This document shows, in pieces, positions 13,282-22,761 of a stretch of 23,056 nucleotides of DNA. Location of the stretch: IMG/VR virus record IMGVR_UViG_3300048996_000103, positions 1 to 23,056 of that record; one strand, written 5' to 3'. The first letter of the stretch is position 1, and every line of letters begins with the position of its first letter. This stretch comes from a virus. Position numbers and translations under genes: made by a program. The notes beneath the pieces were generated by a model, which worked only from the letters and a program-made list of their open reading frames with translations, did no database searches and was not told where the DNA came from.

Positions 13282-14628
13282 CTATGCGACCGCGGCGAGG
13301 TTGCCCGCGGGCGCGAGCATCAAGTTGGTGAGGGCCCACACCATGGCGTCGAGCCGGTCGGGTGAGTTGTCGCCGGGCACCCACGTCACCAGCTGCTCCT
13401 CCAGCTCGGGGAGCGAGTTGACGACGTGCGCGGCCAGCTGATCGAACAGGGCGGCCACCGGTTCGGCGCGCGTCGCCTTGCCGCGGGTCGCGGTCACGGT
13501 CCGGTAGTTCACCGTCCGGTCGATCTGCCGGAGCGTCGTCCCGATCCAGTCGCCACCGTTGTTGACCTCGGCGACGACGACGTCGGCTTTCCACGCGTGG
13601 TACGCCTGCGCGGCCCGGCGCATGCACTCCTCCGGCGACATGCGCCCCGACAGGTCATCGAGGATGTAGCCGTGCCTGCGGGAGAACCCGGTCTTGTCGG
13701 GGATGTACGCCTGGCCGAGGCCGGCCACGATGATGCCCATCTCGTCGGACTCGTCACCGCCCTTGGCTGCGGGGTCGATCGCGACGACGATGCGGGCCAT
13801 GGGTGGGGCGGCGCCGACCCGGGTGGTGTCCAGGCGGGTCCGGGACCACAGGGCGCCTTCGATGTCCTGGAGGAGTTTCCCGTCGAGCTCCTGCGCCTCC
13901 ATCCTGGTCCCGCTGTACTTCTTGATCAGCTTGTCTCGCTGCGCCTGGGGGAGGTGGTGGGCGTCGCGGGTGCGGCCCTGCGTGACGATGACGTCTGCCC
14001 GGCCCTTCAGTTCGATGATCTCGGTGCGCGGCTTCGGGGTCGTCGAGCCGATGTAGTGCGGGTTCGGGCCGATGCGGAGCCCCATCTCGGAGTGCGTGAT
14101 CGCTTCCTTCAGGCGGCGCTGCGCGGCGACCTCTTCCATCCACACCAGGCATCGGTTACCACCGGCGCGGAGACGTTCGATGTCGTCCGGGGAGTGGGCG
14201 CCGAACAGCTTGGCTTCGGCCCCGCTGGGCCAGCGCGCGAACGTACCGCCTGCGGTGGTGCGGAGGACGACGCGCGGGTCATGGCCGCGGAGCCCGGACG
14301 GCCCGTTCACGCAGGCCTCGACGGCGTCGCCCTGCGTGGGGGCGACGATCGCCATGCGGTGCCCGCCCCTCAACCGGGGGTCGCACGGGGGTCCGTTGAC
14401 GTGGTCGACCATGTAGCGGGCGCAGCCGTCCGTTTTGCCGGTGCCACGCCCGCCAAGTTGCAACCACCAGCCGAGGGTCTCGATCGCCTCGGGGGCGACC
14501 TGCCACGGGTACGGCGTCCACGCGTTCCAACGGCGCTGCCACAGCTTGGCGCGCAGCTTCTCCTCCAGCAGGGTCAGCTCCGCATCCGTCGCGCCGGAGA
14601 GCCGGCCCCGGAGGTCGGTGACGGTCAC
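13282..14628 (-). CDS. terL: Terminase large subunit
   Basis: 448 residues from GTG at 14628, overlapping the small subunit stop as GTGA. It is the packaging motor: an N-terminal ATPase and a C-terminal RNase H-like nuclease that cuts concatemers. Walker A is GGRGTGKT (59-66), Walker B plus catalytic Glu is LVWMEE (161-166), the coupling motif is probably GSTTP (194-198), and nuclease acidic residues are Asp285 in IVVAIDPAA, Glu354 in VVAEVNNGGD and Asp424/Asp427 in SPDRLDAMVWAL. All expected motifs are present, and length is normal though on the short side. It forms the usual terS-terL-portal run. Confidence 0.95.
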   Translation of the reverse strand: MTVTDLRGRLSGATDAELTLLEEKLRAKLWQRRWNAWTPYPWQVAPEAIETLGWWLQLGGRGTGKTDGCARYMVDHVNGPPCDPRLRGGHRMAIVAPTQGDAVEACVNGPSGLRGHDPRVVLRTTAGGTFARWPSGAEAKLFGAHSPDDIERLRAGGNRCLVWMEEVAAQRRLKEAITHSEMGLRIGPNPHYIGSTTPKPRTEIIELKGRADVIVTQGRTRDAHHLPQAQRDKLIKKYSGTRMEAQELDGKLLQDIEGALWSRTRLDTTRVGAAPPMARIVVAIDPAAKGGDESDEMGIIVAGLGQAYIPDKTGFSRRHGYILDDLSGRMSPEECMRRAAQAYHAWKADVVVAEVNNGGDWIGTTLRQIDRTVNYRTVTATRGKATRAEPVAALFDQLAAHVVNSLPELEEQLVTWVPGDNSPDRLDAMVWALTNLMLAPAGNLAAVA

Positions 14629-19002: not shown

Positions 19003-19554
19003 TCATGATGCGAGGGCCAACGCCGGCCCCTGCTGCTCCCGGGCCAGGCGCGCCGCCCGCTGGTCCTTGCTCTGCCTCGCCTCCGCGGCCCGGCACCGCA
19101 CGCACGTCTCCTCCCCCAACCGGCGGTGCAACGCGGCCCCGTTGACCGTCCCGCCCTTGGCGTGCGCCACGTCCAGCAGCCGCCGACGCTGCTCCTCCAC
19201 CCGCCCCGCCCGGGCCGTCTCACACACCTCGCACGGCTCGTCGTACCGGCGGTGCGCCCAGAACGCTGCGTCGGTCCCGCACGGCCGGCGGACGCGCCCC
19301 TGCTCGTCGATCCACGACTGATCGGCGGGACGGAGCAGGCGGCGGCGCTCCCGGGCGGTGAGGCCGCCCCACGTGCCGCGCTGCTCGCCGGTGGTGAGGG
19401 CGTAGTCGGCGCAGGCCTGACGGAGCGGGCAGGCCCGGCAGTGGGCGGCGGCGAGTGCTTCGTCGGCGGGGAGGGTGGAGTGCCAGAGCTCGGGGTTGTG
19501 TTCGGGGCGGGCGCAGGTGGCGGTTCCGTCGAGGAACGCAGGGAGTTTGATCAT
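19003..19554 (-). CDS. WhiB-like transcription factor with extra C-terminal Cys pairs
   Basis: 183 residues from ATG at 19554 (MIKLPAFLDGTATCARPE), with GAGGAG ten bases upstream. Wbl proteins bind a [4Fe-4S] cluster through four Cys and regulate transcription with sigma factors. The four Cys are Cys14, Cys39, Cys42 and Cys48 (C-x24-C-x2-C-x5-C), followed by GTWGGLTARERRRLL (60-74), the G-WGG turn. Phage members such as WhiBTM4 are known to alter host WhiB control and superinfection. The second half has two related units, HRRYDEPCEVCETA (101-114, preceded by Cys92) and HRRLGEETCVRCRAAEA (143-159), which may bind zinc. The C-terminus is basic and may touch DNA. The upstream frame extension (MTRPTPHRTPRSHHT) was rejected. 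Confidence 0.9.
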   Translation of the reverse strand: MIKLPAFLDGTATCARPEHNPELWHSTLPADEALAAAHCRACPLRQACADYALTTGEQRGTWGGLTARERRRLLRPADQSWIDEQGRVRRPCGTDAAFWAHRRYDEPCEVCETARAGRVEEQRRRLLDVAHAKGGTVNGAALHRRLGEETCVRCRAAEARQSKDQRAARLAREQQGPALALAS

Positions 19555-19595
19555 GGTGTGGTGGCTCCTCGGCGTGCGGTGGGGCGTTGGTCGGG

Positions 19596-19778
19596 TCAAA
19601 CGGTGGGGAGCTGTCGAGCCCGTCGGAGTGCTCGTTGTGCGGCTCGTCGTGCTGCCCGGTTGGGGAGCGGGTCGGGGTCGGGGGCGTTGTCGTCGATGTG
19701 GTGTTCGCCGGTGCTGGCGGCGTGGAGGTGGGGGCCTGGGGCGTGCCAGCCGTTGGGGAGTCGGCGGGGGCCGGTCAT
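19596..19778 (-). CDS. Small basic protein, 60 residues
   Basis: 60 residues from ATG at 19778 (MTGPRRLPNGWHAPGPHLHA), overlapping the upstream stop as ATGA, with GAGGAG eight bases before. It has a His/Pro/Gly-rich start, an acidic patch (DDNAPDPDP) and a strongly basic helical end (NRAARRAAQRALRRARQL). That last motif, N-R-AR-A, is common in small actinophage proteins and could bind nucleic acid. The ORF extends upstream to 19880, but that part overlaps the neighbour and lacks a ribosome site. Function unknown. Confidence 0.62.
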   Translation of the reverse strand: MTGPRRLPNGWHAPGPHLHAASTGEHHIDDNAPDPDPLPNRAARRAAQRALRRARQLPTV

Positions 19779-20074: not shown

Positions 20075-20970
20075 TTCGCCGCCTCGGTCCCTGGCTGCTC
20101 CTCAGTCGGGGCGGGCTCGGGGTCGGTCTCGACGACGGTGGCGGTCTCGTCCCATCGCACGATGCGGAAGCGGCCAGCGTGGAGACGGCGGCGGTAGGTG
20201 TCGCGGCGGTCGCGGGCTTCGGCGAGGGTGAGGCAGTGGAAGCTGATGCCGATCCACTGGTCCGCCTCCCGGGTTTCGACGGCGTACTCGGTGGTCGACG
20301 GCCAGGACGTGGCCTCGGCGGTGGGCTGCTGCGCCTCGTCGGCCAGGCGGCGGAGGCCGGTGGCGACTGACGCGCATGCCCAGCCCGCCCGCGATGCCCA
20401 GTCCTCGTCGGCTGTGGCCATCGCGGTGGCGATCCGCTGCGCTTCGTCGGCGGCCTCCCGCAGTGCGGCGGCCCGGATCTCTGTGTCGCCCCGCAGCTCG
20501 AACTCCGTGGCCCGGTCAGGGGGTTCGGGTCGGTCCCAGGCCCGGGTGTAGCAGTTGGGGTGTTCGGTGCACGGCTCGGCCGGGGCGGGGGGTGCGGTGG
20601 TCTTGCCGCGCTCCAGCACGGTGCTCGCGGCGTCCGGGGCTGGGCAGTCGATGAGTGAGCACGTCACGTACCCGCCGTCTCCGAGGAACAGGCCGGTGGT
20701 GCCGCAGGCGGGGCAGCGGCCGGTGACGAGGGGCAGGCCGGCAGCGAGCGGCGCGGTGGAACGGTCGGTGGGTGCGGTCTCGGGCTGCTGGTCGGTGGTG
20801 CCGAGGACCTGCCGGGCGGTCGTGGCGGCGACGGCCGCGATGTTGCGCGGGTCATCAACGACGATGGTCTGCTCCGTGGCGCACTGCTCCCAGACGTTGG
20901 CGGCGATGGCCTCCATGAGCGGGTCGCCCTCGATCCAGACGGCGGGAGTGGTGGGTGTGGTGTCGGGCAT
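20071..20970 (-). CDS. Zinc-ribbon protein, DUF6085-like
   Basis: 299 residues from ATG at 20970 (MPDTTPTTPAVWIEGDPLME), with GAGGAG five bases upstream. An N-terminal helical part (18-55, IAANVWEQCAT...NIAAVAATTARQVL) is followed by a zinc ribbon with Cys86, Cys89, Cys104 and Cys109 (RCPACGTTGLFLGDGGYVTCSLIDCP, residues 85-110), the signature of the DUF6085 group found in Streptomyces and its phages. Residues 164-215 are helical (AALREAADEAQRIATAMATADEDW...). Residues 228-280 (YAVETREADQWIGISFHCLTLAEARDRRDTYRR) look like a separate small domain. It directly follows the helicase gene; a part in replication is possible but unproven. Confidence 0.82.
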   Translation of the reverse strand: MPDTTPTTPAVWIEGDPLMEAIAANVWEQCATEQTIVVDDPRNIAAVAATTARQVLGTTDQQPETAPTDRSTAPLAAGLPLVTGRCPACGTTGLFLGDGGYVTCSLIDCPAPDAASTVLERGKTTAPPAPAEPCTEHPNCYTRAWDRPEPPDRATEFELRGDTEIRAAALREAADEAQRIATAMATADEDWASRAGWACASVATGLRRLADEAQQPTAEATSWPSTTEYAVETREADQWIGISFHCLTLAEARDRRDTYRRRLHAGRFRIVRWDETATVVETDPEPAPTEEQPGTEAAK

Positions 20971-20985
20971 GGGTGCTCCTCGGGG

Positions 20986-22761
20986 TCAGGCGGCGGTGTG
21001 GTCGGGGTGGCTGCCGGTGGTGGGGTCGCAGCCGATGTGTGTGTCGTATCCGCGGTTGGCCCAGTCGGGGTTGAGGGGGGTTTCGCAGATGGTGCACAGG
21101 GGGTTTGCGGAGGTGTCTGTTCCTGGCGTTCCCTCCCCGTCCCCCCTCTCCGAGGGGGGGACGTGGGGAACGGGGGGCGTTCCTGACGTTCCCCGCGCGT
21201 TACCGGGCAACGTTTGACCTGCGGCTTTACCGTCCCTTGACGCGTTCCGGGGAACGTTACCGGGGAACGTCTGTTGATCATGGCCGGGGGAACGCTTCGG
21301 GGGAACGTTGGCAGCGTCCGATTTCGCCCGGTTCTGACGGGCCTTGACGATGCGCGCAACCTTGTCGCTGCCGGCCGGGATCTCCAGCTCCATGAGCGCC
21401 GCCTTCACAGCCCTGTTGCCCGCGGTGAGAGGCACGTGGTGCTCGTTCAGGCGCATGATGATGTGCTCGTCGCTGCCCGGGATGTTCTGCTCGCTGTGCT
21501 CGTACGCCATGACGACGTGGCGGGTCCCGCCGTGGGCCCAGTTGTCGCCGTCACGGCGCGCCTGGCGGACGATCGCGAACTCGTCCGGGCCGATACCGGT
21601 ACGGGTGTGGGTGCGGCGCAGGGACAGGTTCCCGCCGCCCTGCGCGGACAGCTCCCACACGTGGTCGACGTCCTGAGTTTTGGCGCTGCTGCCTCGGCCC
21701 CCGCGATCCTTCTCCTTACCGAAGTGGTCCAGGCGCACGGAACTGATGCGGTCGCGCTTCATCGGCAGGAGCGTGTGCCGGTACAGGGACAGCCACGTGT
21801 CCGCGTCGTTCTCCGGGCCGGAGATGAACCGCGACACGGTGTCGATGACGACCAGCTCGGCACCGGTGGCCTTCACGAGGGCGAGGAGATCCGCGCCGCC
21901 GCCGGCCGTGTCGAGGGGCCGGATCGGGGGGAACGACGCGTACAGCAGGTCGCCCATGCTGCGCGGGCCGGCGCCGAACGACAGGAACCGTTCCTGAACC
22001 TGCTCCTGCCCGTTCTCCGCGTCGAGGTACAGGACCCGGATCGGAGCCTGCGCTTCATCGCCGAGGAACGGCTGGCCGGTGGCCATGCGCCACATCCACT
22101 CCTGGCAGAACAACGACTTGCCGGCCTTGCCATCACCGAGGAGGGAGATCTGCTGCCCGGGTCCCATGAGCTTGCCGGGGAGGAGCTGGATCTCCCCGAA
22201 GTCAGTGGCGAAGAACGCGTCCCAGTTGAGGAGCGCGGCGACGAGGTGGGCGGGGCCGCGGCCGGTGGTCTCGCGGAGCTGCTCGCCCTGGTGGAAGCCG
22301 TGGACGACCTTGTCGAGCTCCTCGCCGGTTGCCCCGGACTGAACGGCGATCTTCAGGGCGTTGGCGTGTGCGTCGTAGCGGCGGCGGCGCGCGGTTTCGT
22401 AGACCTGCTCGGCGAAGTGGCTGGCCTGGCCGGCGGGGAGGGAGTCCGCGCCGAGGCGCATGACGTAGTTCCCACCGTCAACTTCACGGAGGCGTCCCTG
22501 CCGCTCGATTTCGGCGCGGATGAGAACGGGGTGGGGCGGCGTGCCGGTGGCTACGAGTCCGGCGACGGTGTCCCAGATGAGGCGGTGGGCGGGCTTGTAG
22601 ATGTCGTCGCGGGTGATGACGGTTGCGCAGTCCTGGTAGGCGGGTGCGCTGTGCATGATGGCGCTGATGACCAGGGCCTCGGCCTCGTCATCGTGGGGGG
22701 TGGTGAGGTTGAGGCCGTCGTGGTCCGCCTGGCGCGGTTCGAGGTGGCGGACTACATCCAC
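20986..22761 (-). CDS. DnaB-N-like / RecA-fold replicative helicase (RepA-like ATPase)
   Basis: 591 residues from GTG at 22761, with CGGAG eight bases upstream. Residues 20-130 look like the DnaB N-terminal domain (DDEAEALVISAIMHSAPAYQD, DIYKPAHRLIWDTVAGLV, RGRLREVDGGNYV). Residues 185-450 form a RecA/AAA_25-type ATPase: Walker A GDGKAGKS (209-216), Walker B LVVID (303-307), and the LDHFGKEKDRGGRGSSAKTQDVDHVWEL region (344-371) typical of hexameric RepA/RSF1010-type helicases. Residues 470-550 are disordered, Pro/Gly/Asn-rich with repeated NVP and FPGN pieces. The end has CTICETPLNPDWANRGYDTHIGC, a likely zinc finger. It is the probable replicative helicase or initiator. The disordered region is encoded by repeated DNA that may be an origin. 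Confidence 0.9.
   Translation of the reverse strand: MDVVRHLEPRQADHDGLNLTTPHDDEAEALVISAIMHSAPAYQDCATVITRDDIYKPAHRLIWDTVAGLVATGTPPHPVLIRAEIERQGRLREVDGGNYVMRLGADSLPAGQASHFAEQVYETARRRRYDAHANALKIAVQSGATGEELDKVVHGFHQGEQLRETTGRGPAHLVAALLNWDAFFATDFGEIQLLPGKLMGPGQQISLLGDGKAGKSLFCQEWMWRMATGQPFLGDEAQAPIRVLYLDAENGQEQVQERFLSFGAGPRSMGDLLYASFPPIRPLDTAGGGADLLALVKATGAELVVIDTVSRFISGPENDADTWLSLYRHTLLPMKRDRISSVRLDHFGKEKDRGGRGSSAKTQDVDHVWELSAQGGGNLSLRRTHTRTGIGPDEFAIVRQARRDGDNWAHGGTRHVVMAYEHSEQNIPGSDEHIIMRLNEHHVPLTAGNRAVKAALMELEIPAGSDKVARIVKARQNRAKSDAANVPPKRSPGHDQQTFPGNVPRNASRDGKAAGQTLPGNARGTSGTPPVPHVPPSERGDGEGTPGTDTSANPLCTICETPLNPDWANRGYDTHIGCDPTTGSHPDHTAA
21138..21307. repeat. Iteron-like repeat cluster and hairpin inside helicase gene
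   Basis: The core GGGGAACG occurs on the plus strand at 21165, 21249, 21262, 21287 and 21300, and inverted at 21187-21194, with shorter inverted forms at 21127 and 21178. The last four direct copies are spaced 13, 25 and 13 bases. A hairpin (CGTCCCCCCTC at 21138-21148 against 21152-21163, one bulged G) lies beside them. Origins built of iterons inside an initiator gene are known, as in lambda gene O. Confidence 0.55.

Follow-up and report, generated by a model that had tools for sequence, protein, structure and literature searches.

A probable iteron-type replication origin within the DnaB-like helicase gene of a phage resembling Streptomyces phage mu1/6

Introduction

The window analyzed here, a 23,056-base IMG/VR virus record taken over its whole length, resembles Streptomyces phage mu1/6 and carries short DNA repeats clustered within the gene for its own replicative helicase. 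The locus raises the question of whether a stretch of coding DNA that encodes a disordered linker also serves as a replication origin and, if so, which protein would bind it. A first-pass annotation had proposed an origin at 21127–21307, had suggested that the DNA rather than the peptide was under constraint, and had pointed to gene O of phage lambda as a parallel. No description of the array was found in a limited literature search of titles and listed abstracts, made under names other than mu1/6; the locus provides a concrete candidate origin for a phage family with none found described in the literature searched.

In this study, the array was analyzed in the window and in 44 distinct helicase loci from IMG/VR, GTDB contigs and phage records, 40 of which had enough sequence for a shuffle test. 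The features of the locus are collected in Table 1.

Table 1. Features of the helicase gene and of the repeat array, with positions in the window
Feature	Position	Strand	Basis
DnaB-like replicative helicase gene, 591 aa	20986..22761	-	Pfam, PHROG, predicted fold
Small three-helix (HTH-like) domain, residues 425-482; candidate iteron-binding domain	21316..21489	-	AlphaFold
Disordered linker, residues 483-551, array-bearing	21109..21315	-	pLDDT and cross-frame repeat excess
C-terminal CxxC...C finger (CTICETPLNPDWANRGYDTHIGC)	21013..21108	-	
Iteron copy GGGGAACG; coding strand CGTTCCCC read N-V-P	21300..21307	+	
Iteron copy; coding strand read R-S-P	21287..21294	+	
Iteron copy; coding strand read T-F-P-G	21262..21269	+	
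Iteron copy; coding strand read N-V-P-R	21249..21256	+	
Inverted iteron copy; coding strand read R-G-T	21187..21194	-	
Iteron copy adjoining hairpin	21165..21172	+	
Iteron-like sites, one mismatch each, at 21127, 21138, 21156 and 21205	21127..21212		
GC-rich hairpin; 12-position stem, 11 Watson-Crick pairs, 8-nt loop	21135..21166		

The host helicase gene

The host gene belongs to the DnaB family, having a DnaB N-terminal domain and a RecA-like ATPase core with a Walker A motif (GDGKAGKS). Pfam matches were obtained to DnaB (1.1e-15) and AAA_25 (3.7e-20), the protein falls in PHROG_19 (DnaB-like helicase), and DnaB structures are the best PDB matches of the full predicted model (E about 1e-17). 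Pfam and the predicted fold together give the order of parts as DnaB_N, AAA_25 ATPase, three-helix domain, disordered linker and CxxC...C finger. Among phage records, only mu1/6, in two accessions, gave a match covering more than 80% of the helicase length. The name 'RepA-like helicase' used in the first-pass annotation is apt only in part, as DnaB gives the best PDB matches for the core of the window protein; it suits other relatives: L003, L004, L014, L016, L017, L030, L072, L083, L084 and L099 have a RepA-like AAA_25 core instead of a DnaB-like core, with an N-domain and C-terminal parts of the same kind as in the DnaB-like-core loci. The N-termini of L011 and L072 are nearly identical and their cores differ.

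The encoded protein at the array is, as had been stated, a disordered linker between ATPase and finger, with a pLDDT of about 26–35 across most of residues 481–550; a small helical domain also precedes it. This three-helix domain, whose last helix spans about residues 465–482, was modeled by AlphaFold with a pLDDT of mostly 75–92. A Foldseek search returned no significant fold match in the PDB (best E 1.3, Fur), the best VIA-align score (Z 5.6, papillomavirus E1 helicase) lies within the range of common arrangements, a profile of the domain gave only weak, chance-level matches to PDB sequences, and Pfam held no significant match. WhiB-like genes lie in or near the replication region, at 19003–19599 in the window and as gp17 and gp29 in mu1/6.

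The repeat array

Counted on both strands, GGGGAACG occurs in seven exact copies in the window against 1.64 ± 1.19 in shuffled sequences, and none of 100 shuffles reached seven. Six copies lie at 21165–21307, within the linker-coding part, and only the seventh, at 21928, falls elsewhere. Read on the coding strand, the word becomes CGTTCCCC, usually within the wider context ACGTTCCCC. The forward copies reported earlier at 21165, 21249, 21262, 21287 and 21300 are all exact, and the spacings of 13, 25 and 13 given for the last four are correct; among the inverted copies reported, that at 21187 is exact, while those at 21127 (CGTTCCCT) and 21178 (CGTTCCTG) carry one and two mismatches, respectively.

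Clustering was also evident across genomes. In seven whole virus records of 38–58 kb that have the ACGTTTCC word, four to seven of the six to eight copies of ACGTTTCC[C/G] per record fall in the array, inside a stretch of about 130 bp in the helicase gene. GGTTCCCSG sites concentrate at the helicase in class-B phages (5/5, 5/5 and 2/3 copies) and are unclustered in other virus records, and eight of the 14 ACCTGCCC sites of mu1/6 (DQ372923) lie at 14134–14304. Multiple short, regularly spaced repeats clustered at one place, the arrangement that characterizes iteron origins, are therefore present.

Constraint on DNA rather than on peptide

The word ACGTTCCCC is read on the coding strand in all three frames as well as inverted, as TFPG, NVPR or DVP, RSP, GNV and RERS; therefore, repetition of the peptide cannot produce the array, and the coding sequence here retains one DNA word in three reading frames at once. 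A codon-shuffle null was applied in which the peptide is kept and pairs of linker 8-mers that recur in another frame or in the other orientation are counted (500 shuffles, p floor 0.002). The window linker contains 29 such pairs against 2.9 under gene-wide shuffling (p = 0.002) and 6.5 under local codon shuffling (p = 0.004), and the mu1/6 linker contains 57 against 5.1 expected from codon shuffles. These nulls were exceeded in all 40 relatives with enough sequence, the array always being at the same place in the gene: gene-wide shuffling gave p = 0.002 in 39 of them and p = 0.004 in L062, and local shuffling gave p ≤ 0.014 in every case. When five genes were scanned along their length, the array stood above the rest, which was mostly flat with a few other stretches at nominal p of 0.02–0.05.

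Furthermore, of 88 ACGTT[C/T]CC sites, only four depart from the C/T state that prevails in their phage, where 25.5 would be expected (p about 5e-5). The C-to-T change is silent in the T-F-P copy but converts N-V-P to N-V-S and R-S-P to R-F-P elsewhere, and it is therefore the DNA word, and not the peptide, that is kept uniform. The array repeats are thus constrained as DNA and not as peptide, in agreement with what the first-pass annotation had supposed. In the relatives the DNA array persists while the peptides change with the reading frame, which is the opposite of peptide repeats being retained with other codons, the outcome that had been named as speaking against the proposal.

The possibility that the DNA repeats merely follow from a repetitive peptide or from an overlapping gene has in its favor that the linker is rich in Pro, Gly and Asn and that the local-shuffle null of the window is raised (the 6.5 pairs above), yet with words in all frames and inverted, and with peptide-preserving nulls exceeded in all 40 relatives, its probability is close to negligible. 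Both forms of the explanation were rejected, the second since none of the alternative frames is open throughout the relatives (28 of 39 at most). A search for known structured RNA in 20800–21600 gave no Rfam match.

The array in relatives

The layout of the array is broadly kept among relatives, with copies 12–13 apart, then 25, followed by an inverted copy, while the word itself varies: ACGTTCCCC, ACGTTTCCC, GGTTCCC, ACCTCCCC, ACCTGCCC and ACCTGTCC were found, of which ACGTTCCCC is shared by the window, L086 and L096, ACGTTTCCC is present in L007, GGTTCCC in L070 and ACCTCCCC in L014, ACCTGCCC belongs to mu1/6 and ACCTGTCC to L029. Copies agree within one phage, and the word changes in concert between clades. 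This behavior bears on whether the site is a recombination or mosaic junction rather than a protein-binding array, as might be suggested by the shuffling of helicase domains around it and by an apparent inversion in one relative with its breakpoint just before it. An exchange junction should share one sequence, whereas each clade has its own word, the spacing is conserved and the copies change together, so that a junction is very improbable.

Several relatives showed individual features. The helicase gene of L029 joins a RepA-like core to a three-helix domain of the mu1/6 kind and carries eight exact ACCTGTCC sites and near matches, some of them upstream of the usual array position. In L006 (7440–10900) and L085 (IMGVR_UViG_2862553101), an apparent inversion of about 3 kb interrupts the helicase gene after the three-helix domain and ahead of the first iteron, with array and finger downstream in opposite orientation and the first finger cysteine lost; this rearrangement looks like a decayed prophage or an assembly error. 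Two Streptomyces plasmids with DnaB-like genes contained no comparable array within the helicase gene. In L112 (1321–1890; a plasmid of Streptomyces sp. NBC_01361), five GCTTGCCC copies lie within 330 bp upstream of a DnaB-like helicase gene, and these are possibly iterons.

Co-segregation with the three-helix domain

As judged by sequence comparison, the type of word tracks the three-helix domain, the ATPase much less and the finger not at all. Among loci with a DnaB-type core, nearest neighbors by three-helix domain shared the word class in about 19–21 of 24 cases. The corresponding values were 11.7 when neighbors were chosen by ATPase, 9.5 by N-domain and 5.9 by finger; for the mixed class-B loci L010 and L095, the word class was decided on a tie or near tie. 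A rank regression that covered 37 loci assigned weights of 0.52 to the three-helix domain, 0.24 to the ATPase, 0.07 to the N-domain and 0.16 to the finger, with a 6-mer measure of word similarity that misses the likeness of L029 to mu1/6 (0.02). This likeness is apparent from direct comparison: the L029 word ACCTGTCC is one base from the mu1/6 word ACCTGCCC, and its three-helix domain is closer to that of mu1/6 (0.50) than to that of L014 (0.34), while its ATPase is L014-like (0.87). L002 and L070 have ATPases that are 95% identical and N-domains that are 92% identical, whereas their three-helix domains are 42% identical and their words differ. Natural swaps, in which the same ATPase is joined to a different three-helix domain and word, are thus available.

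Because the three-helix domain is encoded right beside the array, linkage may account for part of the co-segregation; the finger is encoded close to the opposite end of the array, and its type does not follow that of the iterons. Neither the three-helix domain nor the clade-specific words had figured in the earlier picture of the locus.

Hairpin and base composition

The strong C6/G7 hairpin described beside the repeats was located at the array flank (Table 1). A GC-rich hairpin was found in all loci scanned, about 30–85 nt ahead of the codons for the finger, except that the best score in L001 belongs to another, larger inverted repeat lying 103–55 nt ahead of them. Against codon shuffles the hairpin gave p ≤ 0.05 in most loci, a minority failing this level. 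Nineteen different stems occur among the 22 listed, and pairing holds at 260 of 275 positions. As each stem was chosen for scoring best in its segment, this rate is biased upwards, and the diversity of the stems carries more weight.

Local GC content has a minimum at the array, with a mean of 0.634 against about 0.70 around it, and beyond this dip no distinctly AT-rich tract is present there. A turning point of GC skew at the site, suggested earlier as a check, is absent: cumulative skew runs through the locus without inflection in all four records examined. As skew is confounded by gene direction, the result is not decisive, and GC skew was rejected as proof of an origin. The coding strands of G003 and G004 are most C-rich at third codon positions near the helicase (GC3 skew to -0.46), with weaker peaks near the helicase in G005 and mu1/6.

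The array as a probable replication origin

The location and clustering of the repeats, their kept geometry, the hairpin and the co-segregating domain support the earlier proposal of an origin inside the helicase coding region, and the array and hairpin at 21127–21307 are probably an iteron replication origin. The local GC minimum is in line with this reading; the lack of a skew inflection, the lack of an AT-rich tract beyond that dip and the want of a significant fold match for the three-helix domain count against it. In the mechanism that we propose, the array in the linker-coding part of the phage's own DnaB-like helicase gene would serve as the origin, the three-helix domain encoded just before it would bind the iterons, the helicase, made near its own origin, would assemble there, and the hairpin would help in opening, loading or priming. 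For the three-helix domain as the iteron binder the balance is modestly favorable, and the reading as a whole, an iteron origin in a DnaB-like helicase gene bound via the helicase's own domain with the hairpin assisting, appears rather likely from the comparisons above.

The binder may instead be another phage protein that recruits the helicase, in the manner of lambda O. Lambda works in this way, and no known fold matches the three-helix domain significantly; against this, no other gene family is present in all flanks examined (a WhiB-family gene at 27 of 41 loci by crude ORF calling, others at 23 or fewer, with the helicase at 41 of 41 because it was the search bait), and the word type tracks a domain of the helicase itself, the three-helix domain. 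We consider a separate binder unlikely. Multi-copy operators exist in actinophages, and the next start codon (20970) lies about 150–340 bp downstream of the array, which could therefore also be an operator or repressor-binding array controlling downstream genes. The words, however, cluster at one place and not at several promoters, in a replicative helicase gene and co-segregating with a helicase domain, and this role is quite improbable.

If the helicase does bind its own array, it would be a self-recruiting initiator of the DnaB type, SaPI Rep and pRN1 ORF904 being of other families. The more general notion, that a DnaB-family helicase acts as its own origin-binding initiator, with an iteron-reading domain, a core and an origin in the linker, and that domain and array are exchanged as one cassette, we would give an even chance.

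Comparison with known systems

A homologue, mu1/6 gp21 ('DNA helicase'; 47.7% identity), has its own array of eight ACCTGCCC sites and a hairpin; in the mu1/6 record gp21 is annotated only as a helicase and no origin feature is annotated. In lambda, the origin lies inside gene O, and extra iterons lengthen the protein (PMC7466680). The parallel drawn in the first-pass annotation is apt in that in lambda and its Stx-phage relatives, as here, iterons lie within the coding sequence of a replication gene. However, O is an initiator with an AT-rich tract beside its iterons, whereas the present gene is a DnaB-like helicase rather than an O homologue and has no strong AT-rich tract; here, unlike in lambda, the words vary by clade and a GC-rich hairpin stands at the array flank.

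SaPI Rep recognizes iterons via its C-terminal domain, with the origin just after the gene, and together with SCCmec Cch2 it is a self-loading initiator helicase (PMC7581432). These proteins belong to other helicase families and their origins are downstream of the gene, while the present array is inside a DnaB-family gene and its binding is predicted. In pRN1, the helicase ORF904 ends in a C-terminal winged helix and its gene is followed by a stem-loop origin, and in ORF904 and the BIP-1 phage replication protein the stem-loop near the 3' end of the gene is conserved in structure and not in sequence (PMC4234260). The present locus resembles these in joining a helicase to a C-terminal DNA-binding domain, here a candidate, and in having a stem-loop conserved in structure and not in sequence; it differs in that ORF904 and BIP-1 have an SF3 helicase with a primase domain, a stem-loop after the gene and no iterons. 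The best reading, by analogy, is that the present locus would work like the lambda origin, SaPI Rep and its origin, and pRN1, while being a member of none of these systems because its host gene is a DnaB-like helicase.
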